From an uncultured Pelagibacteraceae bacterium (GTDB taxonomy: Bacteria; Pseudomonadota; Alphaproteobacteria; Pelagibacterales; Pelagibacteraceae): a DNA stretch of 64,000 bases. Under the pieces are notes generated by a model. The model saw nothing but the letters and a program-made list of their open reading frames with translations, searched no databases and was not told the origin of the DNA. Shown piece by piece: positions 1,554 through 36,294 of the stretch; the stretch's first letter is position 1; each line of letters opens with the position of its first letter. The position numbers were made by a program, and so were the translations under genes. Location: positions 62,001 to 126,000 of the forward strand of contig CACALX010000002.1 of assembly GCA_902533445.1 (NCBI GenBank), read 5' to 3'.

Positions 1554-1573
1554 GCATTATTACAAATTAATTT

Positions 1574-1595
1574 TAACAAATCTTTAATATAATAT
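1574..1595 (+). promoter_or_regulatory. Candidate Pho box upstream of the 79-residue membrane protein
   Basis: Two adjoining 11-base units, TAACAAATCTT and TAATATAATAT, closely match the pstS-upstream units read on the pstS coding strand (TAACAAATCTG, TAATATTAACA). The array lies about 46 bases before the ATG at 1642, with room for a -10 element (TAAAAT or GATAAT). This suggests PhoB control of the small gene. The match is by eye and the background is AT-rich. Confidence 0.5.
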
Positions 1596-1641: not shown

Positions 1642-1881
1642 ATGACTGCAAATATAAGAATTTTAAAATGGACAAGCACAGTGTTAACACTTTTAGGAAT
1701 ATTAACTTTTTATTTAGATTACTATCCTTATAGCATGATACCTCACAGTTTAGGTATAGTTGGTTGGACAATTGTTGGTACCATTACAAAAGACAAACCA
1801 TTATTAACAAATTTTTCATTACAAATACCGATAATGATAGCAGGTATAATTAAATACTCTTATACAACAGGAATATTTTAG
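1642..1881 (+). CDS. Small hydrophobic membrane protein, function unknown
   Basis: A 79-residue protein with two or three predicted membrane segments (about residues 10-26, 35-49 and 60-73) and almost no charged residues outside them. I do not recognise the family. A clear Shine-Dalgarno sequence (AAGGAGAG) precedes the ATG by the right distance, which argues for a real gene. Its 3' end overlaps the 3' end of phnM by 4 bases on the opposite strand. A pstS-like 11-base repeat pair lies upstream, so it is probably induced by phosphate starvation together with the surrounding phosphonate genes. Its role could be structural or accessory to transport; nothing in the sequence decides this. Confidence 0.65.
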   Translation: MTANIRILKWTSTVLTLLGILTFYLDYYPYSMIPHSLGIVGWTIVGTITKDKPLLTNFSLQIPIMIAGIIKYSYTTGIF

Positions 1882-3014
1882 CTTACTTGGATTCCGTTTG
1901 ACCAAACGTTTTTCACAACAGGTGAATTTTGATAAATTTTAAACCTTACTAAATCTGCTCTTTTATTGTTGTCAATTAAACCCCTATCATTTAAATTTGT
2001 GGCTATAGATGGAGCGTGACTAGCTGCTGCAAATGCTTTTGGAAGATTATCAATTTCTAAACCCCATTTGACAACAGATATAATTAATGAGGATGGAATA
2101 TAATCTGAACTTAAGATGTCTAAACAATCATTTTCTAAGAGTTCTTTTGCAGATATATTCCCAGAGTGTGAACCTCCCCTAAGTAAATTAGGAGATCCCA
2201 TCATGACTTTAATATTGTAATCTTTAGAAGTTTTGGCTGCTTCTAATGTTGTTGGAAATTCAGCCAATTTTACTCCATATTTATTTGAATTATGAACATC
2301 ATTTTCAGTGGTATCGTCATGACTAGCCAAAATACAATCATATGAGGATTTAAATTCTAGAATTTTATCTATGTGCTTCTTGCTGTTTTTTTTTTGAAGA
2401 TTTTTTAAGTGTTCAAAATGAATTTCCATTTCATTTTCTGTCATACCATGTTTAATTGAAAGATATTCTTTGTACTTATCTATAACTCTAAATTGCCTCT
2501 GACCTGGTGTATGATCCATTATACTAATCAGTTTTACATCGTGAGTTTCGTTATATTCGTCTAATTCATCAGTTAAATTCTCTGAACATGTTTCGGCTCT
2601 TAAATGTATTTTATGATCAATCTTGAGAATATTATCTTTCTTAAAATTTGAAATTATATCTGAACAGTTTTTTGCATATTTTTTGTATTTTCCTGTTTTT
2701 TCGATAGAACCAACTCTCAATGCATCAAAAACTGTAGTGATTCCAACAGATGCTAATTCTCTATCATGAGATAAAATTGCATTTTCTACTGGAAATGAAA
2801 CTTTAGGTCTTGGTGTCATGTGTCTTTCAAGATTGTCAGTATGTAATTCAACCAATCCTGGCGAAATATAATCTTTTTCGCAGTCTATAGAACTTTTGTT
2901 ATTACTTAATCCACTACTTATATCGACTATCTTGTTATCTTTAATCCTGATATGACCATGAACGATTTCATCTTTTTTAATTATCATGGCATTGTTTAAA
3001 ATATATTCATTCAT
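1878..3014 (-). CDS. phnM: PhnM, alpha-D-ribose 1-methylphosphonate 5-triphosphate diphosphatase
   Basis: A 378-residue amidohydrolase-superfamily enzyme of the C-P lyase pathway. It removes pyrophosphate from ribose 1-alkylphosphonate 5-triphosphate to give the substrate of PhnJ. Visible metal-binding landmarks are His58, Asp60 and His65 (VELHTDNLERH), a later MDHTPGQRQ motif, ASHDDTT and a C-terminal SSDYIPSS. Length and motifs agree with the family. It is transcribed separately from phnGHIJKLN, because a plus-strand DUF1045 gene lies between them. The ATG at 3014 is supported by good N-terminal alignment to PhnM. A candidate Pho repeat lies upstream. Confidence 0.95.
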   Translation of the reverse strand: MNEYILNNAMIIKKDEIVHGHIRIKDNKIVDISSGLSNNKSSIDCEKDYISPGLVELHTDNLERHMTPRPKVSFPVENAILSHDRELASVGITTVFDALRVGSIEKTGKYKKYAKNCSDIISNFKKDNILKIDHKIHLRAETCSENLTDELDEYNETHDVKLISIMDHTPGQRQFRVIDKYKEYLSIKHGMTENEMEIHFEHLKNLQKKNSKKHIDKILEFKSSYDCILASHDDTTENDVHNSNKYGVKLAEFPTTLEAAKTSKDYNIKVMMGSPNLLRGGSHSGNISAKELLENDCLDILSSDYIPSSLIISVVKWGLEIDNLPKAFAAASHAPSIATNLNDRGLIDNNKRADLVRFKIYQNSPVVKNVWSNGIQVS

Positions 3015-3031
3015 CGCTTTTTAATACACAT

Positions 3032-3053
3032 GAATTGTTACAAATATTTTAAA
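3032..3053 (-). promoter_or_regulatory. Candidate Pho box upstream of phnM
   Basis: Read on the minus strand, the two 11-base units are TTTAAAATATT and TGTAACAATTC; the second matches the pstS-type unit well. The array ends only about 17 bases from the phnM ATG, close for a classical -10 plus leader, so it may also serve the divergent DUF1045 gene. Weak to moderate support. Confidence 0.35.
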
Positions 3054-8736: not shown

Positions 8737-8782
8737 GTAACAAAATTAAAAAAAATTTCAATTAATTATTTATTAAAATTTT

Positions 8783-9493
8783 ATGACAACAAAAGATTTG
8801 CTTTGGAAAGAAATATACAATTCAATCAAAAGAGAAATTGTTTTAAATAAGTACAAAATTAATAAAAAGTTAGATTCTGAGAATGAATATGCAAAACAAT
8901 TCAATGTCAATAGACACACTATAAGAAGAGCTTTAAAAGAACTTAAAGACGATAATTTAATATATTCAAAAAGAGGTCTTGGAGTATTTGTTAAATCATC
9001 AAAAATTAATTACTCAATTAGTAAAAACGTACGATTTACTGAGAATATACTTCAAGAAAACCAATCAGTAAGAATTGAAATAAAAAGTTTTGATATTGCT
9101 GAATGCAATCCTTTTGAAAAAAAAGAACTCAACTTAAAAAAAAATGACAAGATTACACGCATAAATAGCATAGGCTTTGTTGACAAGTCACCTTCTGTAA
9201 TAACTTTCAGATCGATTCCTTATAAAAAATTCCCAAAATTTATTAATCATTTTGTTAAAAAACAATCAGTAACCAAAGCTTTTAATTTATTGAATATCAA
9301 ATCAATTAAAAGATCAAAAACTCTAATTAATGCTGAAATTGCAGACAAAATAAAATCAAATTTATTAAATATAAATGAGGGGGAAGCACTATTAAAAACT
9401 ACATCTGTTAATGTCGATTTTAAAAACAATCCTATAGAATTAAGTGAAAGTTATTTTATTGGATCTAAAATTCAATTTTTAATAAAAAATTAG
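8783..9493 (+). CDS. phnF: PhnF, GntR/HutC-family transcriptional regulator
   Basis: A 236-residue regulator. The N-terminal winged helix (about residues 8-70) shows the GntR pattern LDSENEYAKQFNVNRHTIRRALKEL, with a wing segment IYSKRGLGVFV. The C-terminal UTRA effector domain spans about residues 85-236. PhnF proteins repress phosphonate genes in response to a ligand linked to phosphonate or phosphate supply. It is divergent from phnG and followed by phnC, so it can act on both. A tandem octamer near the phnG start may be its operator. The GntR/UTRA call is certain; the ligand is unknown. Confidence 0.92.
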   Translation: MTTKDLLWKEIYNSIKREIVLNKYKINKKLDSENEYAKQFNVNRHTIRRALKELKDDNLIYSKRGLGVFVKSSKINYSISKNVRFTENILQENQSVRIEIKSFDIAECNPFEKKELNLKKNDKITRINSIGFVDKSPSVITFRSIPYKKFPKFINHFVKKQSVTKAFNLLNIKSIKRSKTLINAEIADKIKSNLLNINEGEALLKTTSVNVDFKNNPIELSESYFIGSKIQFLIKN

Positions 9494-9548
9494 ATTTTCT
9501 ACCTTAGGTTTAAATTTCATATAACTTAAACAAAATTTAAAAGATTCA

Positions 9549-9581
9549 TTAATAATATTTTAACATTTATTAAAGATTTGA
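9549..9581 (+). promoter_or_regulatory. Candidate Pho box upstream of phnC
   Basis: Three 11-base units beginning TTAATAATATT, TTAACATTTAT and TAAAGATTTGA precede phnC by about 20 bases. They resemble the pstS repeat only loosely. Just downstream, GAGGGTT...AACCTC could fold into a small hairpin before the phnC ATG, which lacks a well-placed Shine-Dalgarno sequence. Weak evidence. Confidence 0.3.
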
Positions 9582-9600: not shown

Positions 9601-10425
9601 ATGATTATTAAAAAAGTTAACAAATTTTTCGGTAATAATCATGCCGTTAAAAACGTTTCTTTTGAGGTTAATAAACCTCAAATGATTGGAATCATAGGTA
9701 GATCTGGGGCTGGTAAATCAACATTACTAAGAATTATAAATCGACTCACTGACGCAACAGATGGATCGATTGAAATTGAGGGTCAAAATATTCTAGATTT
9801 AAAAAGTAAGGAAAAGAGATCATGGCAAAGAAACTGTGCAATGATTTTTCAACAATTTAATTTAGTCCCAAGATTAGATGTTTTAACAAACGTAATATTA
9901 GGTAGATTAAATTATCAGGGCTCATTTAGAGCATCTTTAAAAATGTTTTCTCGAGATGAAAGAGCTGATGCTCTGATTTTACTCAATAACTTAGGTATGG
10001 CTAACACTGCCCTTCAAAGAGCTGAAACGTTATCTGGAGGTCAACAGCAACGTGTAGCTATATGTAGAGCCTTAATGCAAAATCCTAAAATGATTTTAGC
10101 AGATGAACCAATTGCATCTTTAGATCCAATGAATGCAAGAATGGTAATGGAATCATTAAGAAAAATTCATGACGAAAAAAATTTAACAGTTATTTCAAAT
10201 CTTCATACACTTGATACAGCAAAAACTTATTGTGATCGAATTATTGGAATGAAAGATGGTGAAATAGTCTTTGATGATTTACCTGAAAAATTATCAGATA
10301 AACTTGCAAGAGAAATTTATGGTGCAGAGGCTGATGAAGCTTTTGAGCCACAAGTAACATCTACCGAGCTTAAAACAAAAAATAAATTAAATGGAGATGT
10401 TGAGAAAGAATTTGCAACTGCATGA
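9601..10425 (+). CDS. phnC: PhnC, phosphonate ABC transporter ATP-binding protein
   Basis: A 274-residue ABC ATPase energising phosphonate import. It has Walker A (GRSGAGKST), signature ([15 protein letters not shown]) and Walker B ([12 protein letters not shown]) motifs, plus the PhnC-type insertion around residues 100-125 ([18 protein letters not shown]). The gene starts the phnC-D-E1-E2 transport operon, directly downstream of phnF. The C-terminal 30 residues extend past the ATPase core and show no motif. Confidence 0.95.
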
Positions 10426-13820: not shown

Positions 13821-14243
13821 TTACCAGAATTTCCACCAAGGTTTTTCTTCCTTTGGTGTCTCATTATTGTCAGCAACAACTTTAGTTACAGATGGATCCT
13901 CTCCATCTACTAATCCTGCTCTGGCAACTGTCTTAGCGTCTTCTAATTTTAGTTTTGCCTCAAAAACTCTATTTTCATTACACAATTTCATGCCTTCTTT
14001 CATTAATGCTTCTGCCTCAGTTGCATTTTCGGGACTAGATCTTGAAATATCATTTTTAACAGTGGCTCTTAACATAAGTACTCCAGGGTCTTCACAATTC
14101 CCTATTTCATTTTTAAATGTGTCATCAGTATTTTGTGAATAGCTACTACCAGCTTGTTGTTCTGTTATTTTTACGTGATTGTCAGCTTGAGCAACTGAAA
14201 CTGTGGATAAGACCAATAAAAATGAGATAAAAATTTTATTCAT
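13821..14243 (-). CDS. Secreted/periplasmic protein of unknown function
   Basis: A 140-residue protein with a clear signal peptide (MNKIFISFLLVLSTVSVAQA, cleavage near residue 20). The mature part has two cysteines (in GNCEDPG and KLCNENR) that could form a disulfide. A helical middle resembles a single TPR-like hairpin (EAEALMKEGMKL, FEAKLKLEDAKTVA), and the aromatic C-terminus ends WWKFW. I do not recognise the family. The gene lies between phnE2 (tail-to-tail) and an MFS gene (head-to-head), and the shared promoter gap contains Pho-like repeats, so a role under phosphate stress is likely. Confidence 0.7.
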   Translation of the reverse strand: MNKIFISFLLVLSTVSVAQADNHVKITEQQAGSSYSQNTDDTFKNEIGNCEDPGVLMLRATVKNDISRSSPENATEAEALMKEGMKLCNENRVFEAKLKLEDAKTVARAGLVDGEDPSVTKVVADNNETPKEEKPWWKFW

Positions 14244-14258
14244 AATAATTTAATAACT

Positions 14259-14280
14259 AAGTTTTGTTAAAAAAATGTTA
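14259..14280. promoter_or_regulatory. Candidate Pho box in a divergent 54-base gap
   Basis: Read on the minus strand the units are TAACATTTTTT and TAACAAAACTT, both close to the pstS units (TAACAAAACCG). The gap separates a secreted unknown protein and an MFS permease. The array is only about 16 bases from either start codon, unusually close, so orientation and function are uncertain. Confidence 0.4.
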
Positions 14281-14297
14281 AAGAAATAAAAAATTTT

Positions 14298-15470
14298 ATG
14301 AAATATTTACCAGCATTTCTAATAGGTATATCGGTTACCTTTTGTTACAGCAGCTGCATGTACTTATTTTCAGCACTATTGTTAACTTGGGAAAATGAAC
14401 TTGGTATTTCAAGAAGCAACTTAACTTTTATTTATTCTCTAGGCTTAGTTGTGCATAGTTTACTTTTACCTTTTCTTGGTAAGATTGTAGATAAAAATCT
14501 AAGTTTTCCAATGATGTGGACCAGTCCTATACTGTTAGGACTAAGTGTAATTTATCTTTCATTAGTAGATACATATGGTGGATTTTTAGTTGCTTGGATA
14601 CTTGTTAGTGCAACCTCTGGTGGTTGTCTTTACACGATACTTTTTAGCGTCATTACTATTAATTTAAAATCAAAGGCTAAGACATCTATTGCAATTATTA
14701 CTTTGTTTGCGGGATTTGCAAGCACATATACATTTCCTACTGCAACTTATTTAACAGAACAATATGACTGGAGGTTTACTGTATTTATTTTTGGAATAAT
14801 AAATATACTGATCAGTTCACCAGCTAATTATTTTGGTTTTAAAAATATAATTCGAAAAGAATTTAAAAATATTGAAAAACAAAACAATCAAAATTCAAAG
14901 CTTAATATAATACTTAAAGACTATAGGTTTTGGTTATTTAGTTTTTCATTGTTTGTTATTGGATTTAATATTGGTGCTATTACAACTCATGTAATTCCAA
15001 TGTTACAGGAAAAAGGAATGAGTCTGTCCCTAGCTGTACTGACGGCATCAATGTTTGGACCTGGTCAAGTAATTGGAAGAATTTTGGTAATGATATTTGG
15101 AGGAAATAAATCGAATCTAAAATTATTTGTTATTTGTTTTTACTCGATGGTAGTTGGAATGATATTTTTATACTTTATAAATATTAATCATTATTTAGCT
15201 TTTTTGTTTGTTTTATTTAACAGCTCAGCATATGGAAGTATGGCAATTTTAAAACCTTTAGTTCAAAATGATGCTTTTGGTCAAAAAAACTTTGGTAATC
15301 TTCATGGTATTTTAGCTTTGCAATATATGATTGGTAGTATTTTAGGTCCTTGGATTGGTTCATTGGTTTGGAATATCGGAGGATACGACTTACTTATATT
15401 GGTATTTTTGATTTTAGCAATTATTGGGAACGTAACAGCTATTTTTCTAAACAAAAAAAAGTTTATTTAA
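14298..15470 (+). CDS. Major facilitator superfamily permease
   Basis: A 390-residue membrane protein with about 12 hydrophobic segments in two halves, typical of MFS carriers. A short MFS-like motif is seen after the second segment (GKIVDKN), and the GPGQVIGRILVM segment lies in the second half. The substrate cannot be read from the sequence. Context offers hints: it sits between phosphonate and arsenate genes, converges with the PhnZ-like gene (8-base overlap) and shares a Pho-like repeat with the divergent secreted protein. An organic-phosphorus-related or arsenical substrate would fit, but this is inference. Confidence 0.8.
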   Translation: MKYLPAFLIGISVTFCYSSCMYLFSALLLTWENELGISRSNLTFIYSLGLVVHSLLLPFLGKIVDKNLSFPMMWTSPILLGLSVIYLSLVDTYGGFLVAWILVSATSGGCLYTILFSVITINLKSKAKTSIAIITLFAGFASTYTFPTATYLTEQYDWRFTVFIFGIINILISSPANYFGFKNIIRKEFKNIEKQNNQNSKLNIILKDYRFWLFSFSLFVIGFNIGAITTHVIPMLQEKGMSLSLAVLTASMFGPGQVIGRILVMIFGGNKSNLKLFVICFYSMVVGMIFLYFININHYLAFLFVLFNSSAYGSMAILKPLVQNDAFGQKNFGNLHGILALQYMIGSILGPWIGSLVWNIGGYDLLILVFLILAIIGNVTAIFLNKKKFI

Positions 15471-16014
15471 AACTTCTTTCTACATATTTATAAAAATAAT
15501 GTATGTTTGGAATTTCCAAATTTTTGACTTTAGCAAGGTCATCGTATTTTCTTAATCTAACTGCATCTAGCATAAAAGGTTGTTTGATAAAATCATTTGC
15601 TTCATCTGCAGAAAAACTTCCACCTTGAACATCTAAACTCTGTTTTGAAGCAATAGATAAAGTATCATAATAACCTTTTTCACAATAAACCAAATATCTT
15701 TTAGCTGGTACATGTCCTTTAATTAATCTTGTAACATCTTCTGGAAAAAATCTAGAAAGAAAAAAAGATCCTGAATTTTCATGCTTTTTATCTATTCCTT
15801 TTTTTATGGCTTCTTTGTCATTATTAATTAAGTGACCAATATCATGGAATAGAGCTGCAGTAATGAAAAAATGGTTTTCATTGTTTTTTTTTGCCAACAA
15901 TGCACATTGAATTGCATGTTCTAGTTGTGAAACTTTTTCATTTCCATATTGTTTGTTTGATCCAATTTCCTCTATAATTTTAAATAAATTGACAATATTT
16001 GATTTAATATCCAT
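15463..16014 (-). CDS. phnZ: PhnZ-like HD-domain mixed-valent diiron oxygenase (phosphonate C-P bond cleavage)
   Basis: A 183-residue HD-domain protein closely resembling PhnZ, which cleaves 2-amino-1-hydroxyethylphosphonate to glycine and phosphate using O2. Metal ligands expected for the diiron site are present: His33, His57-Asp58 (ALFHDIGH), His61, His78 and His101. The PhnZ-specific block GHVPAKRYLV with Lys105 is conserved. Tyr23 and Glu26 fall where PhnZ has Tyr24 and Glu27, residues tied to its substrate recognition. The hydroxylating partner could be the PhyH-family gene at 672-1553. Divergent from arsC; convergent with the MFS gene. Confidence 0.85.
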   Translation of the reverse strand: MDIKSNIVNLFKIIEEIGSNKQYGNEKVSQLEHAIQCALLAKKNNENHFFITAALFHDIGHLINNDKEAIKKGIDKKHENSGSFFLSRFFPEDVTRLIKGHVPAKRYLVYCEKGYYDTLSIASKQSLDVQGGSFSADEANDFIKQPFMLDAVRLRKYDDLAKVKNLEIPNIHYFYKYVERSFK

Positions 16015-16029: not shown

Positions 16030-16051
16030 TAACAATGTTTCAGTTTTGTTA
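16030..16051. promoter_or_regulatory. Candidate Pho box between phnZ-like gene and arsC
   Basis: Minus-strand units are TAACAAAACTG and AAACATTGTTA, the first matching the pstS unit TAACAAAACCG. The array is nearly symmetric, so it could work in either direction. It is about 16 bases from the phnZ-like start and about 62 from the arsC start; the latter distance suits a promoter better. Confidence 0.45.
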
Positions 16052-16112
16052 CAATTTAGATTTAGTACTCATTAAGTCTAGAAAAAATAATTTATAGTAA
16101 TAAAAGTTAAAA

Positions 16113-16568: not shown

Positions 16569-17217
16569 TAAAAAAAAAATAATTTATAGTGAATTCATAG
16601 GTAGTTGCTTCTTAGTAATGATTGTTGTTGGTTCTGGTATCATGGCTCAAAATCTTACTAACGATACTGCTGTTATGTTATTAGCGAATACTATTGCAAC
16701 AGGAGCTGGTTTATTTGTTCTTATAACTGTGTTTTCTGATATATCGGGAGCACATTTTAATCCATTTGTGACACTAAGTATGTTTTTTGCGGGAAGATTA
16801 AAATCAAAATTAATTCATATATATATCTTGTCACAAATATTTGGTTGTCTAGCGGGTGTAGGTTTAGCAAATTTTTTTTTTGAATTACCTATTTATGAGC
16901 TGTCATCTAAAACAAGAGATGGGGTTTATATATTTGTAGCTGAAATAGTAGCAACTTTTGGATTAATTTTAATTATATTTGGATCAATGAAAAGTGGAAA
17001 AGTTGTAACCGCTGCATGTGTTGGTTTTTATATTACAGCTGGATATTGGTTTACTTCATCAACTTCTTTTGCAAATCCTGCTGTTGCAATAGCTAGAACT
17101 TTTACAGATACATTCACTGGAATAAATTATTTAAATACACCTTTATTTATAATTGCAGAGCTATTAGGAACACTGTTAGCAATATTTGTAATAAAAAAAA
17201 TGTTATTTACTAAATGA
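16558..17217 (+). CDS. aqpS: MIP-family channel, AqpS-like arsenite-exporting aquaglyceroporin
   Basis: A membrane channel of about 219 residues with six membrane segments and two half-helices. The first pore motif is NPF (GAHFNPFVT) instead of NPA; the second is canonical NPA with the selectivity-filter arginine (ANPAVAIAR). AqpS next to arsC in Sinorhizobium lets arsenite leave down its gradient, and this arrangement is the same. I prefer the ATG at 16558 over that at 16540; either overlaps arsC. It converges with phnX (8-base overlap). Confidence 0.85.
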   Translation: MKNSKKKIIYSEFIGSCFLVMIVVGSGIMAQNLTNDTAVMLLANTIATGAGLFVLITVFSDISGAHFNPFVTLSMFFAGRLKSKLIHIYILSQIFGCLAGVGLANFFFELPIYELSSKTRDGVYIFVAEIVATFGLILIIFGSMKSGKVVTAACVGFYITAGYWFTSSTSFANPAVAIARTFTDTFTGINYLNTPLFIIAELLGTLLAIFVIKKMLFTK

Positions 17218-18004
17218 TTTTATTTTCAATCTGTTCAATTATTTTCGGTAAATCCTTAATTGTATCAATTACGTAATGTGCACCTATTTTCTTAAACTTA
17301 TGAGAGATTTTTTTTCTAAATTTAAATTTTTCTTTGTTGGTTAATTTATTAAATTCGTGTTCATTTTTGCCAAATTCATTTCCAGAAAATATTACTCCTA
17401 TTACCCACATTCCAGCATTTAATCCCTCCTGTAGTCCAGGAATAGTGTCGTCTACTTTAACGCAATTTGATCCCTTGGTTATATTTAAATCAGAAAAGAT
17501 CCTATAAATTATCTCTGCAGAAGGTCTTCCAATTTTTGTGTATGAGGAACTATATGACACATCAGGTATAAATCCTTGTTTTTTTAATTCTGGCAATATA
17601 ACTTTTAGAATTTCTTCTGAATATCCGGTATTGATTCCTATTTTTATTTTTTTGTTTTTTATAAAATCTAAAGTTTTTTTACTTCCTGATATAAATTTTG
17701 AATGTTTCTTAATTATTTTTTTTAATTCTGGATTAAAAAGTTTAAACAATTTATCAATATCTTTATCTGTTGGTTTTGATTTAAATTTTTTTTTCCACTG
17801 CGTATTAATTTTTCTTGTTGTTAGCAATGCTTTTATATGGGCTCGTTTTTCAATACCCATTGGTCCTATGGCTTGTTTTCGGGTAATTTTAATTCCAAAC
17901 CTATCAAATAATTCAATAAGAACTTGAGATGGCGCAAGGCTTCCAAAATCTATTAATGTACCAGCTAAATCAAATACAATTGCTTCAATATTGGAATTTT
18001 TCAT
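17210..18004 (-). CDS. phnX: PhnX, phosphonoacetaldehyde hydrolase (phosphonatase)
   Basis: A 264-residue HAD-superfamily enzyme that splits phosphonoacetaldehyde into acetaldehyde and phosphate. The nucleophile Asp12 (FDLAGTLIDFGSLAP) and the Schiff-base Lys53 (PMGIEKRAHI) occupy the same positions as in the Bacillus cereus enzyme, and Ala14 of the DxAGT motif is kept. Downstream HAD motifs INTGYS and VKVDDTIPG are present. The aminotransferase PhnW, which makes the substrate from 2-aminoethylphosphonate, is not in this window. A three-unit Pho-like array lies upstream. Confidence 0.9.
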   Translation of the reverse strand: MKNSNIEAIVFDLAGTLIDFGSLAPSQVLIELFDRFGIKITRKQAIGPMGIEKRAHIKALLTTRKINTQWKKKFKSKPTDKDIDKLFKLFNPELKKIIKKHSKFISGSKKTLDFIKNKKIKIGINTGYSEEILKVILPELKKQGFIPDVSYSSSYTKIGRPSAEIIYRIFSDLNITKGSNCVKVDDTIPGLQEGLNAGMWVIGVIFSGNEFGKNEHEFNKLTNKEKFKFRKKISHKFKKIGAHYVIDTIKDLPKIIEQIENKII

Positions 18005-18116: not shown

Positions 18117-18149
18117 TTAATGTTACAAAAATATTACAGATTTATTACA
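18117..18149 (-). promoter_or_regulatory. Candidate Pho box (three tandem units) upstream of phnX
   Basis: On the minus strand TGTAATAAATC, TGTAATATTTT and TGTAACATTAA follow each other exactly, each starting TGTAA at 11-base spacing. This is the clearest array in the window and resembles the pstS array (CGTAACAAATC, TGTAATATTAA). It lies about 113 bases before the phnX start and directly abuts the ATG of the divergent TPR gene. Confidence 0.6.
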
Positions 18150-18702: not shown

Positions 18703-18750
18703 TTAATTTATCTGTAAAATATCTTTAATATTATTCAAATATAATAACTT

Positions 18751-23018: not shown

Positions 23019-23543
23019 ATGTATGAATTATATGTCATGCGTCATGCAAAATCCAGCTGGAGCGACTTAAATTTGAGTGATTTTGAGAGACCTTTAAATG
23101 GACGTGGTAAGAAAAATGCCAAATTGATGCGTGAATTTTTTGTTAAAAAAAAATTTATTTTTGATTATGTAATGGTTTCATCCTCAAAAAGGACTGAAAA
23201 AACACTCAAGATAATTTTAAAAAAACTAAGTAAGCCCAAAAAAATTTTTTCATCAAAAAAACTATATCTTACGAATGAACAAAAAATAATTGATATGATA
23301 AAAAAAGTTTCGAATAAATATAAATCTATACTTTTAATTAACCATGAACCTACCGTTAGAAATTTAGTTAGAGAATTAATTAAAAATAATAACAGTAATA
23401 TATATAAATTATTAAATTATAAATTTTCTACCTGTGCATACGCAAAAATAAATTTTAATATTAATAATTGGAAAGAAATTACAAACAAAGGTATTTTAAA
23501 AGAGTTTGTTAGACCAAAAGATATTCAAGCTTCTAAAGAGTAA
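23019..23543 (+). CDS. sixA: SixA-type phosphohistidine phosphatase
   Basis: A 174-residue histidine-phosphatase-superfamily protein. The RHG-type motif is MRHAKSSWSD with catalytic His9, followed by LNGRGKKNA and a second histidine in INHEPTVRNL. SixA dephosphorylates phosphohistidine in phosphotransfer proteins. It lies head-to-head with ppk1 and tail-to-tail with phoB (19-base overlap), which could link it to phosphate signalling, but the target is not known. Confidence 0.85.
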   Translation: MYELYVMRHAKSSWSDLNLSDFERPLNGRGKKNAKLMREFFVKKKFIFDYVMVSSSKRTEKTLKIILKKLSKPKKIFSSKKLYLTNEQKIIDMIKKVSNKYKSILLINHEPTVRNLVRELIKNNNSNIYKLLNYKFSTCAYAKINFNINNWKEITNKGILKEFVRPKDIQASKE

Positions 23544-24208
23544 CCTGCTGATCTAACAGTTCTAATTAGAGGTTTTGTATTTGCAATATTTATGGCTTGT
23601 CTTAATCTTCTGATATGAACATCAACCGTTCTTGATTCAACATAAATATTTTCACCCCATACATTATTTAGAAGTTGTTCTCTGGAATAAACTCTTTTTG
23701 GATTCTTAATAAAAAAATCTAATAACTTAAATTCTGTTGGTCCAAGTGAAATTTCTTTATTTTTTCTATAAACTCTTTTTGTTATCCTATCTATTTTAAG
23801 GTCAGTAAACTCAACCACATCAATTGAAGATTGAGGTTTAGATCTCCTTAGTAAGGATTTTATTCTTGCATTTAATTCTTTTTGACTAAATGGTTTGGTT
23901 ACATAATCGTCAGCTCCAGTATCGAATGCTTTTAGTTTATCCTCTTCTTCTCCTTTCGCTGAAACCATTATTATAGGAATGTCTTTAAATTTTTTATCTT
24001 TTTTAAGATTTCTACAAATATCTACACCTGATAAATCTGGAAGCATCCAATCCATTAGTATCAAATCAGGATATTTGTCTTTTATTTGTTTAAGAGCATC
24101 CTCGCCATTTTCCGAATAACTTACCTTATGACCTTCTTTTTCCAAATTATACTTAAGTAAAGTAATTATTGAAGTTTCATCTTCTGCGATAAATAAATGA
24201 GCAGACAT
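23525..24208 (-). CDS. phoB: PhoB, phosphate-regulon response regulator
   Basis: A 227-residue OmpR/PhoB-family regulator. The receiver domain (residues 1-120) has the phospho-acceptor Asp in LILMDWMLPDLSG and the conserved Lys in YVTKPFS. The DNA-binding winged helix (residues 130-227) includes RLRQAINIANTKPLIRTVRSAGYSL. It is the last gene of pstSCAB-phoU-phoB, the common alphaproteobacterial order. It presumably binds the tandem 11-base repeats described across this region and is phosphorylated by PhoR (30234-31391). Confidence 0.96.
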   Translation of the reverse strand: MSAHLFIAEDETSIITLLKYNLEKEGHKVSYSENGEDALKQIKDKYPDLILMDWMLPDLSGVDICRNLKKDKKFKDIPIIMVSAKGEEEDKLKAFDTGADDYVTKPFSQKELNARIKSLLRRSKPQSSIDVVEFTDLKIDRITKRVYRKNKEISLGPTEFKLLDFFIKNPKRVYSREQLLNNVWGENIYVESRTVDVHIRRLRQAINIANTKPLIRTVRSAGYSLEA

Positions 24209-28326: not shown

Positions 28327-28345
28327 TTATGTAGATTTAATCTTG

Positions 28346-28380
28346 TATTAAAAAAAAGGCCCTAATAAAAGGGCCTTTTT
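28346..28380 (-). terminator. Intra-operon terminator/attenuator between pstS and pstC
   Basis: Inverted repeat AAAAAGGCCC (28353-28362) and GGGCCTTTTT (28371-28380) with an 8-base loop. On the minus strand the stem is followed by a run of U residues. It lies after the pstS stop and before the permease gene, the same arrangement as phnD/phnE and aapJ/aapQ, so partial termination would raise PstS over the membrane components. Confidence 0.85.
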
Positions 28381-28401
28381 AAATTTGTTAACAAATCAAA
28401 A

Positions 28402-29498: not shown

Positions 29499-29531
29499 TT
29501 AATATTACAGATTTGTTACGGTTTTGTTAAA
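29499..29531 (-). promoter_or_regulatory. Pho box upstream of pstS (three tandem 11-base units)
   Basis: On the minus strand TTTAACAAAAC, CGTAACAAATC and TGTAATATTAA adjoin, each with TAA in the same register at 11-base intervals. PhoB binds tandem 11-base direct repeats, and pstS is a core PhoB target, so this array serves as the local reference for the other candidates. A TCTAAT sequence about 20 bases downstream could be the -10. Confidence 0.7.
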
Positions 29532-29542
29532 AACCTAACTTT

Positions 29543-30160
29543 TTAATTGAAATTTTTAGTTACAACAATAGTGTCAAATTCGTCTGCCAAACTACCCTTA
29601 CAATTAATAGGACTAACACCTTCCCTAAAAGCAAGCTCATTTGATGGTCTTAAAGTAACTTCTAGTTGTATCATGGATACTAATTCTTTAATTTTTTGTT
29701 GTTCATATTTCCAAGAAGGCCAACTTGTTGGTGTTGAAAATGTTGAAACTACATAGGACGAAGCTCTTGAAAAATTATAATTGCTCTCGTTTTGATTTCT
29801 TAACAGATGATCTCTTACAGAAAAAAAAATATTTTTACATCTATACATATCTGAAAAATAGTTTGTTTTTGTTAATGTTTCGCTCATTGGTACAGACACG
29901 ATTAAATCAATTGTGTTTCTCCAAAATGATGAAACCACATCTGTATAAATATCTGAAATTTCGATTTCTTTATTAGGAAAATGCTTTTGAACTTGTGGTA
30001 TTGATGATTTCATATCCTCTTGTAATCTAAAAATACCAATATCATAAACAGTAAGTTGTTGATTTCTAAGCAAAGAAGTAATTGATTGTGCGTTTACAAA
30101 TGTTGTAAATAAGAACGGTAAAAATAAAAGAACAATTATATTTTTTAATCTAATCATCAT
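29543..30160 (-). CDS. Secreted protein of unknown function between pstS and phoR
   Basis: A 205-residue protein with a signal peptide (hydrophobic residues 8-24, cleavage near VNA). The mature part has two cysteines (MYRCKN and INCKGS), a long helical stretch (KYEQQKIKELVSMIQLEV) and no motif I recognise. It is likely periplasmic. Its position between the pst operon and phoR, all on one strand, suggests a link to phosphate sensing or uptake, but no direct evidence exists. It could be lineage-specific. Confidence 0.65.
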   Translation of the reverse strand: MMIRLKNIIVLLFLPFLFTTFVNAQSITSLLRNQQLTVYDIGIFRLQEDMKSSIPQVQKHFPNKEIEISDIYTDVVSSFWRNTIDLIVSVPMSETLTKTNYFSDMYRCKNIFFSVRDHLLRNQNESNYNFSRASSYVVSTFSTPTSWPSWKYEQQKIKELVSMIQLEVTLRPSNELAFREGVSPINCKGSLADEFDTIVVTKNFN

Positions 30161-30233: not shown

Positions 30234-31391
30234 TTATAATTCACTTGGTAGATGTAAATGAACTTCAGTACCTTTTCCTATTTTACTTTTAATTTCAAAC
30301 TCACCTCTGTGCTGAGCAATTATATGTTTCATGATTGCAAGTCCCAAACCAGTCCCTCCTACTCTTTTACTTTTTTCAACATCAACTCTATAAAATCTTT
30401 CAGTAATTCTTACTATTTGATCTTCAGGTATCCCAATGCCTTGATCTATAATGGAAATTTTAACTCCTTTTTTTGAGAATTTTCCTACACTTTCTGAAGT
30501 AAATACCTCAATAGATTTATTTTTTTCAGAATATTTAATTGAATTATCTATTAAATTAGAAAAGACTGTTAGGATACGTTCCTCATTTCCTATTATTTTT
30601 CCAAATTTTTGAGAAATGTTTATTTTTAAATTAATTTTATTTTTATCTATATTGGTTACATGAATTGCTTTAACTTTGTTAAATACTTCCTCTAAAAAAA
30701 CAGTTTCGCTTGGTCTTATATGTTCTTCTAATTCAATTCTACTCAATATAAGTAGATCACTTATTAGACTTTCCATTCTTAAAGTTTGAGAATTCATAAT
30801 ATCTAAGAATTTTTTTTTGGCAGGTTCATCGTCTTTTGCAGGTCCTTGAATTGTTTCAACGGCACCTTTAATAGACATTAAAGGAGTTCTTAATTCGTGA
30901 CTAACGTTTGCTACAAAGTCGGTTCTAAATTGTTGAGCTTTAGAAATTTCTGTTAAGTCCTTTAAAAATAAAACTACCGACTCTTGATCTGGAAATAACA
31001 TGGTAGGCCCAGGAATGGCATAAATTCTATAATGCTGATAAGAAGGTAAACTAATTTCAAGGTCTATAAAATTTGTTTTATTATTTTTCTTAACATCATT
31101 GATAAGATTATCTAACTCGGGGTTCCTAATAATAGTGCCTAAATGTTTATTTTTAAGATTATTACCAAATCTTTTGTTGGCACTAGGATTGGCGTACTCA
31201 ATTATGTTTAATTTATTTAATGCTATAAATTGATCTTCAATTTCATCTAAAATAAATTTTTTATCTTTATCAGGATCATATTTAGAAATTTCTGTTTTTT
31301 TTTCCTCTAGGTTATTTTTATTTTGGTTCCATATTTTTAAAGACAATATCACTATAATCCCTAACAAAATTAACTCAAAAATACCTATCAT
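30234..31391 (-). CDS. phoR: PhoR, phosphate-regulon sensor histidine kinase
   Basis: Histidine kinase of about 385 residues. One N-terminal membrane helix (residues 3-20) is followed by a PAS-like segment, the HisKA motif FVANVSHELRTPLMSIKG and HATPase boxes (ERILTVFSNLIDNSIKYSE, IIDQGIGIPEDQI, GGTGLGLAIMKHI). There is no periplasmic sensor domain, as expected for PhoR, which reads the Pst/PhoU state. I use the ATG at 31391; a TTG at 31421 would run into the Pho-like array in front of olsB. Unlike in many genomes, it is not adjacent to phoB. Confidence 0.93.
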   Translation of the reverse strand: MIGIFELILLGIIVILSLKIWNQNKNNLEEKKTEISKYDPDKDKKFILDEIEDQFIALNKLNIIEYANPSANKRFGNNLKNKHLGTIIRNPELDNLINDVKKNNKTNFIDLEISLPSYQHYRIYAIPGPTMLFPDQESVVLFLKDLTEISKAQQFRTDFVANVSHELRTPLMSIKGAVETIQGPAKDDEPAKKKFLDIMNSQTLRMESLISDLLILSRIELEEHIRPSETVFLEEVFNKVKAIHVTNIDKNKINLKINISQKFGKIIGNEERILTVFSNLIDNSIKYSEKNKSIEVFTSESVGKFSKKGVKISIIDQGIGIPEDQIVRITERFYRVDVEKSKRVGGTGLGLAIMKHIIAQHRGEFEIKSKIGKGTEVHLHLPSEL

Positions 31392-31404
31392 TTTAATAAA
31401 TATG

Positions 31405-31426
31405 CAACAATTTTTTAACAATTTTT
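31405..31426 (+). promoter_or_regulatory. Candidate Pho box upstream of olsB (divergent from phoR)
   Basis: Plus-strand units CAACAATTTTT and TAACAATTTTT are nearly identical and follow each other at 11 bases. A CATAAT about 12 bases downstream fits a -10 element. The expected transcript start would fall at or next to the olsB GTG. The array also lies just upstream of the phoR ATG. Confidence 0.5.
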
Positions 31427-31452: not shown

Positions 31453-32277
31453 GTGAGTTTAACAACATCTCTTTTAAAATCAAATTATACAAAAAGATTT
31501 TATATAAACACTGGAAACTTTTTTAAACCACAATTTAAAACAAAATTAGCTGATAGTAAAAACGAAATTAAAGCTGCACAAAAATTAAGATATGAAGTTT
31601 TTTTTGAAGATAGAAAGAAAAAAAAAATAATAAGTATATCTAGTTTTAAAAGAGATACAGACATATACGATAAATACTGTGATCATTTAATTGTTACTTA
31701 TAAAAAAAATAAATTTAGTAAAACTAAAATAATTGGAACTTACAGATTACTAAAAGAAGAAAATAGTAAAAATGTAGGTTTTTGCACAAGTGAAGAATAT
31801 AATTTAAAAAATTTATTAAATTCAAATAGATATAATAATTTACTGGAAGTAAGTAGATCTTGTATTCATAAAAATCATAGAAACAAAAATGTACTACAAT
31901 CGATGTGGAGAGAAATTCACAATTACGTAATAACTAACAAAATTGAAGGACTATTTGGAACTGCAAGTTTTTTACATACAAATTTTAAAAAAATTGAAAA
32001 CGAATTGATTTATTTGCAACAAAATTTTTTAATGGAAAAACACATAGAAGTTACAGCAAATCCATCAATGTTAATAGACTTAGATTATAAAAGATCTATA
32101 AAACCTTCATTAAAACTAATTAAAAATTTACCTACGTTAATTAAAGGATATTTAAAATTGAACGCTAAAGTTGGAAATGGTGCAATAATTGATCCAAAAT
32201 TTAAAACGATCGATATTTTTGTTTTTGTTGAATTTGATAAAATTGAGCCTAAATATTTAGAAAAATTTTCTTACTAA
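31453..32277 (+). CDS. olsB: OlsB-like L-ornithine N-acyltransferase
   Basis: A 274-residue acyltransferase of the GNAT/hemolysin-like OlsB family, which attaches a 3-hydroxyacyl chain to ornithine in the first step of phosphorus-free ornithine lipid synthesis. The characteristic N-terminal block AAQKLRYEVFFED and EVSRSCIHKNHRN are present. The reading frame starts with GTG at 31453, and no in-frame ATG lies near. The olsA-like gene follows after 7 bases. Ornithine lipids replace phospholipids in SAR11 under phosphate stress (reported for strain HTCC7211). Confidence 0.85.
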   Translation: MSLTTSLLKSNYTKRFYINTGNFFKPQFKTKLADSKNEIKAAQKLRYEVFFEDRKKKKIISISSFKRDTDIYDKYCDHLIVTYKKNKFSKTKIIGTYRLLKEENSKNVGFCTSEEYNLKNLLNSNRYNNLLEVSRSCIHKNHRNKNVLQSMWREIHNYVITNKIEGLFGTASFLHTNFKKIENELIYLQQNFLMEKHIEVTANPSMLIDLDYKRSIKPSLKLIKNLPTLIKGYLKLNAKVGNGAIIDPKFKTIDIFVFVEFDKIEPKYLEKFSY

Positions 32278-34855: not shown

Positions 34856-34929
34856 AGTTTGTTACAATTTTTACTAGAATCACTTCAATCTTTGTGTCAT
34901 AGTAATGTTACGAATTTGTTAAAATTAAC
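34856..34929. promoter_or_regulatory. Candidate Pho boxes in the plcP / lipid-kinase divergent gap
   Basis: Plus-strand units TGTCATAGTAA, TGTTACGAATT and TGTTAAAATTA run at exact 11-base spacing (about 34895-34927). Read on the minus strand the same stretch gives TTTTAACAAAT and TCGTAACATTA, close to the pstS units. A further unit AGTTTGTTACA lies at 34856-34866. The site could serve plcP-agt, the divergent lipid kinase, or both. Confidence 0.55.
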
Positions 34930-36161: not shown

Positions 36162-36294
36162 TTGTTAACATACAAAATTTTATAAATTATAAGAGGTAAG
36201 AATAATTTAAAAACTTATTAAAATTTTGTTATAAACTTTTAGAATTTATATATTTCAAAAACATAAACTAATTATTATAAAATTGTTACATTTA

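Follow-up and report, generated by a model that had tools for sequence, protein, structure and literature searches.

The Pho box is described as a set of direct 11-base repeats whose consensus varies between species (PMC4415409). In E. coli, whose consensus takes the form CTGTCAT, many PhoB-bound sites are reported to be transcriptionally inert in a ChIP-seq study (PMC10294691). Putative Pho boxes have also been predicted at the plcP clusters of marine bacteria, including SAR11 HTCC7211 (PMC4796936). The plcP-agt cluster described there resembles the plcP locus of the DNA analyzed here but, unlike the present analysis, the main text of that report does not appear to give a consensus, a matrix or a wider regulon. 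Among the matches listed in the open-access literature, supplements aside, we saw no Pho-box consensus for SAR11.

We analyzed a 64-kb stretch of DNA (the window) from a 1.13-Mb genome that is 87% complete. Its GC content is about 28% (A+T about 72%). The presumed PhnJ is 98% identical to proteins of uncultured Pelagibacteraceae, which makes the DNA SAR11-type. A first-pass annotation had proposed that a recurrent 11-base tandem motif in this stretch marks a PhoB regulon, and that the motif constitutes a local model different from that of E. coli. Here we describe how far each proposal holds.

Gene content of the window

The left 36 kb of the window form a phosphate island. Family models identify phnM, phnN, phnL, phnK, phnH and phnG, and two frames between phnK and phnH that lack an NCBIfam match at 1e-10 are called phnJ and phnI here from their place only. 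Profile searches also place pstS, pstC, pstA, pstB, phoU, phoB, an olsB-like gene and a lipid-kinase gene in the island, together with genes for a GntR regulator, an ABC protein, a phosphonate-binding protein, a histidine kinase, polyphosphate kinase and Ppx, and phnX, phnZ-like, arsC-like and arsK-like genes. The model matches of pstS, olsB, phnZ-like, arsC and arsK lie below the NCBIfam curated cut-offs. A metallophosphoesterase gene adjoining a glycosyltransferase gene is presumed to be plcP with agt, from gene order and the cluster described in PMC4796936.

The phosphate transport genes are arranged in the order pstS-pstC-pstA-pstB-phoU-phoB. Between pstS and pstC (28327-28401), a G+C-rich hairpin with a T-run behind it on the coding strand resembles a terminator and may raise the expression of pstS above that of the remaining genes of the cluster. 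The predicted boxes, phoB and the presumed phoR are collected in Table 1.

Table 1. Predicted PhoB boxes in the window and the genes for their presumed reader and its sensor
Feature	Position	Strand	Remarks
pstS three-unit PhoB box (predicted)	29499..29531	-	31.2 bits for three units, best in the window
phnX three-unit PhoB box (predicted)	18117..18149	-	28.6 bits; best match to the E. coli matrix in the window
plcP PhoB box (predicted)	34902..34923	-	18.4 bits; two good units
olsB three-unit PhoB box (predicted)	31392..31424	+	19.4 bits for three units; shuffle p 0.01; olsB 31453-32277
DUF6552 79-residue gene PhoB box (predicted)	1572..1593	+	17.9 bits; gene 1642-1881
phnZ-like HD oxygenase PhoB box (predicted)	16032..16053	-	17.8 bits; gene 15463-16014, divergent from arsC
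140-residue protein gene PhoB box (predicted)	14261..14282	-	19.1 bits; gene 13821-14243, divergent from arsK
phnG PhoB box (predicted), head of C-P lyase genes	8767..8788	-	14.1 bits; genes from 8728 downwards
phnM PhoB box (predicted)	3032..3053	-	13.2 bits; shuffle p 0.0075; gene 1878-3014
phnC weak PhoB box (predicted)	9548..9569	+	10.5 bits, weakest; shuffle p 0.0175; gene 9601-10425
phoB	23525..24208	-	Presumed reader of the boxes; TIGR02154 323 bits, above cut-off
Histidine kinase, presumed phoR	30234..31421	-	HisKA/HATPase; no box of its own, leader score 0.6 bits

A tandem 11-base motif upstream of phosphate genes

For these analyses, a weight matrix of one 11-base unit was trained on the pstS promoters of relatives alone, the window being excluded as a guard against circularity. 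We found pstS in 35 of 61 genomes and retrieved 30 loci, one of which is our own. Arrays of 33 bases, or three units, were cut from 13 pstS promoters picked by eye (10 distinct arrays), which represent the 27 relatives with enough DNA upstream of pstS. Locus L011, in which the match begins within pstS and leaves no upstream DNA, was left out, L009 has 6 upstream bases, and L126 and L035 were dropped as too short. All 39 training units have T at base 3, A at base 5, C or T at base 6 and G or T at base 2, and base 4 is A in 35 of them, C in 1 and T in 3. The unit consensus is about TKTAAYAAAAN, with two or three units in tandem on the strand of the gene.

The strongest array in the window, that of pstS, reads TTTAACAAAAC CGTAACAAATC TGTAATATTAA on the pstS strand, as three 11-base units. 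When both strands of the window were scanned with two tandem units, the top eight matches lay at pstS (two), the 140-residue protein gene, plcP, phnX (two), the DUF6552 gene and the phnZ-like gene, followed by phnG, phnM and olsB. Each of the eleven shares the strand of its gene, and the first match without a gene behind it (36269-36290) ranks twelfth. The units seen first at pstS are present, with small shifts of register, at the places where they had been reported most clearly, namely phnX (three units), plcP, olsB and the 79-residue gene. The less clear sites that had been listed proved uneven; those of phnM, the phnZ-like gene and the 140-residue gene reach at least 12 bits, while that of phnC is weaker. 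One of them had been placed near the phnZ-like gene or arsC, and its orientation favors the former. Altogether, eight of the nine sites listed reach at least 12 bits with the relatives' matrix, and the phnG site, absent from that list, is to be added.

Several sites have particular settings. The phnX gene occupies 17210-18004 and its box region is divergent from a TPR gene; another genome (G031) likewise has three units upstream of phnX. The plcP box heads the presumed plcP and the next glycosyltransferase gene (34834 down to 33009), and the phnG box shares bases with the first two codons of phnF, its divergent neighbor. Neither Pfam nor NCBIfam gave a match to the 140-residue protein. A scan for sigma-70 -10 elements gave no clear common offset from the window sites. 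Between the TPR gene and a NUDIX gene, a pair of units at 18713-18734(+) scores 11.8 bits (shuffle p 0.0025).

We compared genes inside and outside the island by scanning the 200 bases upstream of each leader, defined as the first gene of a directon, and scoring two tandem units. At a cut of 12 bits, which was set after the window scores were seen, 9 of 24 island leaders scored, as against 1 of 147 other leaders of the genome (Fisher p 4e-8); the latter comprise 0/10 in the rest of the window and 1/137 in 320 kb of other contigs. The nine leaders are those of pstS, phnX, plcP, olsB, DUF6552, phnM, the phnZ-like gene, the 140-residue gene and phnG. With an alternative cut of 10 bits, the counts are 11/24 and 2/147. 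The first-pass annotation had named equal scoring before unrelated genes as an outcome that would speak against the motif; what we observed was this strong imbalance, with a few exceptions at about 17 bits that are described below. The spacing of the units is distinctive as well. When spacings from 7 to 23 were scanned, a spacing of 11 gave nine leaders with at least 12 bits and any other gave 0 to 3, the 3 falling at the harmonic, 22. None of 1000 column-permuted matrices reached nine leaders (mean 0.33, most 6), and 10 of the 24 island leaders scored above dinucleotide shuffles of their own sequence (p<=0.01). These results confirm the recurrent tandem motif.

Training on only eight distant pstS promoters returned the same top six, with p<=0.02 for all ten sites, and training on three promoters of another family alone was weaker (4/24 leaders at p<=0.01). 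The forward window contains 12 places with at least 12 bits and 9 with at least 14, and the reversed window 6 and 0. In a strand-swapped control, 6/24 leaders reached at least 12 bits, which we attribute to divergent pairs that share one region and of which both members were scanned. Loose IUPAC patterns showed no excess over reversed controls genome-wide (103 vs 122; 118 vs 133); therefore, only the weighted matrix together with position discriminates, and the loose patterns were dropped as a site finder over our own genome in favor of the matrix.

Comparison with E. coli PhoB sites

We built a second matrix from 59 E. coli PhoB sites (118 half-sites) in the ChIP-seq table of PMC10294691. With a uniform background, the top six matches of this matrix in the window lie at phnX, pstS, the phnZ-like gene, phnX, phnG and pstS, and predicted sites make up 8 of the best 10 and 10 of the best 25 matches. 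With a background of window composition, a place within a tRNA gene ranks first and predicted sites take ranks 2 to 6 (five of the best six) and 7 of the best 25. With the uniform background, matches scoring at least 17 bits number 5 within the left 36.2 kb, none within the right 27.8 kb and 2 within 320 kb of other contigs. We regard the result with the E. coli matrix as the best evidence that the predicted sites are PhoB boxes.

The resemblance extends to individual bases. As far as the ChIP-seq table shows, E. coli pho boxes have the same 11-base period in the same register as the window sites, and their half-sites, like the window units, carry A at base 5 (118/118), mostly T at base 3, C or T at base 6 and G or T at base 2. 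They differ at base 4, which is C in 82 and A in 35 of the 118 E. coli half-sites, in contrast to A in 35/39 units of the relatives' pstS promoters, and in the number of units, of which pstS and phnX of the window, unlike the E. coli pho box, have three. Since the E. coli matrix ranks the same sites first, and since A already stands at base 4 in 35/118 E. coli half-sites, the difference from CTGTCAT appears to be one of spelling. The window sites look like PhoB boxes in an AT-rich spelling, base 4 being A rather than the C favored in E. coli, and the proposed local model is distinct as a consensus only. The plain consensus CTGTCAT-N4-CTGTCAT was tried as a site finder and set aside as nothing special over expectation; with 3 mismatches allowed, it occurs 6 times against 4.49 expected, and one of the six is the phnX site.

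The presumed reader is likewise conserved. The PhoB of the window contains the stretch RTVDVHIRRLR, which we take to be the recognition helix. This stretch is identical to that of E. coli PhoB (1gxp), and in 20 distinct rows from relatives it reads RTVDVHIRRLR or RTIDVHIRRLR, the row of L079 being cut off inside it. The form with I for V is that of the L080-L088 group. Both pstS and phoB are present in 32/61 genomes and both are absent from 23/61, our own included in the count. The presumed phoR and the neighboring 205-residue gene (29543-30160; leader score -2.5 bits) have no box, in contrast to E. coli, where a PhoB site lies at phoB (PMC10294691).

Conservation in relatives

We scored the corresponding promoters in a SAR11 set of ten loci, nine from Pelagibacteraceae and one from Pelagibacterales. 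Boxes were found before phnM in 8/8 loci (seven alike, L167 with another sequence and distance), before phnG in 8/8, before the 140-residue gene in 7/7, before the phnZ-like gene in 7/7 (15.6-20.0 bits) and before the DUF6552 gene in 5/5 (12.9-17.9 bits). The phnZ-like boxes differ between loci by C or T at base 6 and by changes in the spacer. All eight phnC orthologues have a box (10.5-16.4 bits), that of L164 at another place, and two further phnC rows (L160 and L167, 28-29% identity) are paralogues. The plcP box recurs in the 1/1 locus available (L163) and the olsB box in 2/2 (pairs 11.3 bits, triples 16.9); three-unit arrays precede 54-58% identical olsB genes in G016, L161 and L163 (15.5-16.9 bits; best pairs 11.3-11.9). 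Since several loci are near-identical, these counts are not independent. In the same loci, phnN, phnI, phnH, phnD, arsK, arsC and phnF all score at most 4.0 bits, DUF1045, which is divergent from phnM, scores up to 7.4 bits, and PhyH reaches 9.9 in one locus.

Boxes also occur beyond the SAR11 set. An 11.3-bit pair precedes the 140-residue gene in 11/11 genomes of another family of the order, where the protein is 50-52% identical (shuffle p 0.003-0.013) and the distance is nearly equal (16 vs 17 bases). With the E. coli matrix, the best match in the pstS promoters with enough DNA lies 66-71 bases before the start codon in 28/28, our own included, at 12.8-20.4 bits, and a match is present in 6/6 other plcP promoters of the same genus with enough upstream DNA (14.6-18.0 bits). 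Ten phnX homologues of another family (32% identical) have weak boxes only (5.7-7.4 bits, p 0.013-0.063), and no box was found in 17 scored distant HD homologues; for the HD genes of the other family, whose starts are uncertain, only part of the leaders was scored.

Base 4 and genome composition

We examined base 4 in the phnG boxes of 80 loci, using a scan made neutral between A and C at this position. Six loci had no usable upstream DNA; among the 74 scored, nearly all from alphaproteobacteria, 45 have a box of at least 12 bits and 29 fall below 12. In the 28 of these 45 loci with a GC content of at least 50%, base 4 is C in 56/56 half-sites, and in the 3 loci at 35-50% it is C in 5/6. In the 14 loci below 35%, which belong to SAR11 and SAR116, it is A in 20/28 and C in 8/28. 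Eight of these 14 are SAR11 loci that share one and the same box, with C in unit 1 and A in unit 2, and the other six are classed as SAR116 (L168 by its matching box) and have A in both units. The form TGTAACAAAACTTTAAC is found in SAR116 phnG boxes as well as in pstS boxes of SAR11 relatives. The phnG boxes of Rhodobacteraceae and other GC-rich genomes resemble those of SAR11 in their region, their two-unit plan and, often, a T at base 2 of the second unit, and they differ in having C at base 4 throughout.

In a scan neutral in this way, a GC content of 28% would by itself produce A in about 72% of cases (by arithmetic), so the count of A in the AT-rich loci shows no preference. A departure from composition is seen in the pstS units (35 A, 1 C, 3 T) and in the GC-rich half-sites (56/56), in counts that include relatives many times over. 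PhnJ is 78-81% identical between SAR11 and SAR116, and transfer of phn genes between the two is possible.

Matches outside the phosphate island

Our matrix scan of the genome outside the window covers 320 kb of other contigs, about a third of that DNA. From this background scan or from the pattern scan, at least three other places in the genome score about 17 bits before genes not known as phosphate genes. A 17.4-bit pair (L060, 15034-15055) overlaps the called start of a phosphate acetyl/butyryltransferase-like gene and is the only leader with at least 12 bits among the 137 background leaders. Zero-mismatch pattern matches elsewhere number three. One, C1:120753, points away from the adjoining gene and was rejected as a promoter site. 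The second, C4:100796 (L238, 2297-2318), is a 17.1-bit pair about 105 bases before a response-regulator gene (receiver domain and Fis-type helix-turn-helix), and the third, C11:15906 (L239, 2407-2428), is a 17.3-bit pair that falls within the terminal part of a reading frame and precedes a DUF1800 gene by about 50 bases; these two could be regulon members or false positives. Two further candidates were discarded, C18:3421 as sitting in a coding frame and C10:9739 as scoring below 12 bits.

A cluster at L052 4848-4951 (G000:C7:66847-66950) contains pairs of TGTAAY units in both directions, with five overlapping matches of at least 12 bits and up to 16.0, and a stretch of about 50 bases that looks duplicated. 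It precedes a 115-residue orphan gene, found in 0/60 other genomes, and a PhyH-domain gene, and is a possible regulon member outside the window. Within the window, a 460-base gap that has no gene ahead of the units contains two pairs at 36212-36290(-), one of which (36269-36290) is picked by both the relatives' pstS matrix and the E. coli matrix. A strong hairpin lies about 50-90 bases beyond these pairs; the place was rejected as a small-RNA promoter, there being no Rfam match at gathering score and only short partial matches in relatives.

Discussion

The 11-base units of the window are very probably PhoB boxes that drive a low-phosphate regulon. They show several features of Pho boxes, namely two or more direct repeats of 11 bases (seven conserved, four less so) with a sharp peak at that spacing, a match to a matrix of experimentally PhoB-bound sites, a place on the same strand before phosphate-starvation genes far more often than before others (with exceptions outside the island), and, in the same genome, genes for a sensor kinase and for a cognate PhoB whose DNA-reading helix is conserved. 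Under low phosphate, PhoR would phosphorylate PhoB, which would then occupy the tandem units in head-to-tail fashion and bring in RNA polymerase. Its predicted targets would be pstS, genes for C-P lyase and other phosphonate functions, plcP and olsB for lipid remodelling, and two short genes. The pstS box would also serve phoB, presumably by read-through past the terminator-like hairpin. The regulon first suggested for this DNA is supported as the best reading, in that each gene listed carries a predicted site on its own strand.

Repeats of this kind could in principle be read by another response regulator of the OmpR/PhoB family, the genes then being co-regulated by a different signal. Repeats set head to tail at roughly one helical turn are typical of that family, and a first look at the genome gave eight candidates for a PhoB-like sequence. 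However, the only one of the eight that reaches E <= 1e-60 to the window PhoB is phoB itself, the top-scoring array stands before the gene cluster that includes phoB, the genes concerned are mostly phosphate genes, and sites bound by E. coli PhoB yield the same top ranks, all of which makes another regulator highly improbable. That the repeats arose by chance in very AT-rich intergenic DNA, together with selection by the reader, is scarcely credible. The A+T content, the loose patterns that are as common reversed as forward, the 36212-36290 pairs without a gene and the few 17-bit matches before other genes would agree with chance, but it is largely contradicted by the excess of island leaders (9/24 vs 1/147), and the window-free matrix, dinucleotide shuffles, column permutation, spacing scan and conservation before orthologues also stand against it.

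A narrower doubt concerns the weaker members. Some sites, among those of phnC, olsB, phnM and the NUDIX gene, might be decayed or non-functional look-alikes, leaving a true regulon of about six promoters. The low score of phnC and the modest shuffle values of phnC, olsB and phnM point in this direction, as does the transcriptional inertness of many PhoB-bound sites reported for E. coli (PMC10294691). Yet the phnM, phnC and olsB sites recur in other SAR11 loci, in the case of olsB at 54-58% protein identity, and we consider this narrower regulon rather unlikely.

The motif is real but of a familiar kind, and looks like this lineage's version of the PhoB docking site. As a tentative possibility, somewhat short of probable, we suggest that the Pho box has been respelled by genome composition under an unchanged PhoB helix, base 4 moving from C towards A in SAR11 and AT-rich SAR116, perhaps independently, with the phnG operator traceable from 29% to 71% GC, and that the SAR11 regulon also claims the DUF6552 and 140-residue genes as phosphate-starvation functions.

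SAR11 bacteria rank among the most numerous cells of the ocean and do not lend themselves easily to manipulation. An operator that can be read from sequence would provide a testable list of genes that SAR11 may turn on at low phosphate, including those for C-P lyase and phospholipid replacement, and would point two short genes, DUF6552 and the 140-residue gene, to the phosphate-starvation response. We also offer it as what may be an example of operator spelling that tracks GC content while the reading helix of the regulator stays unchanged.
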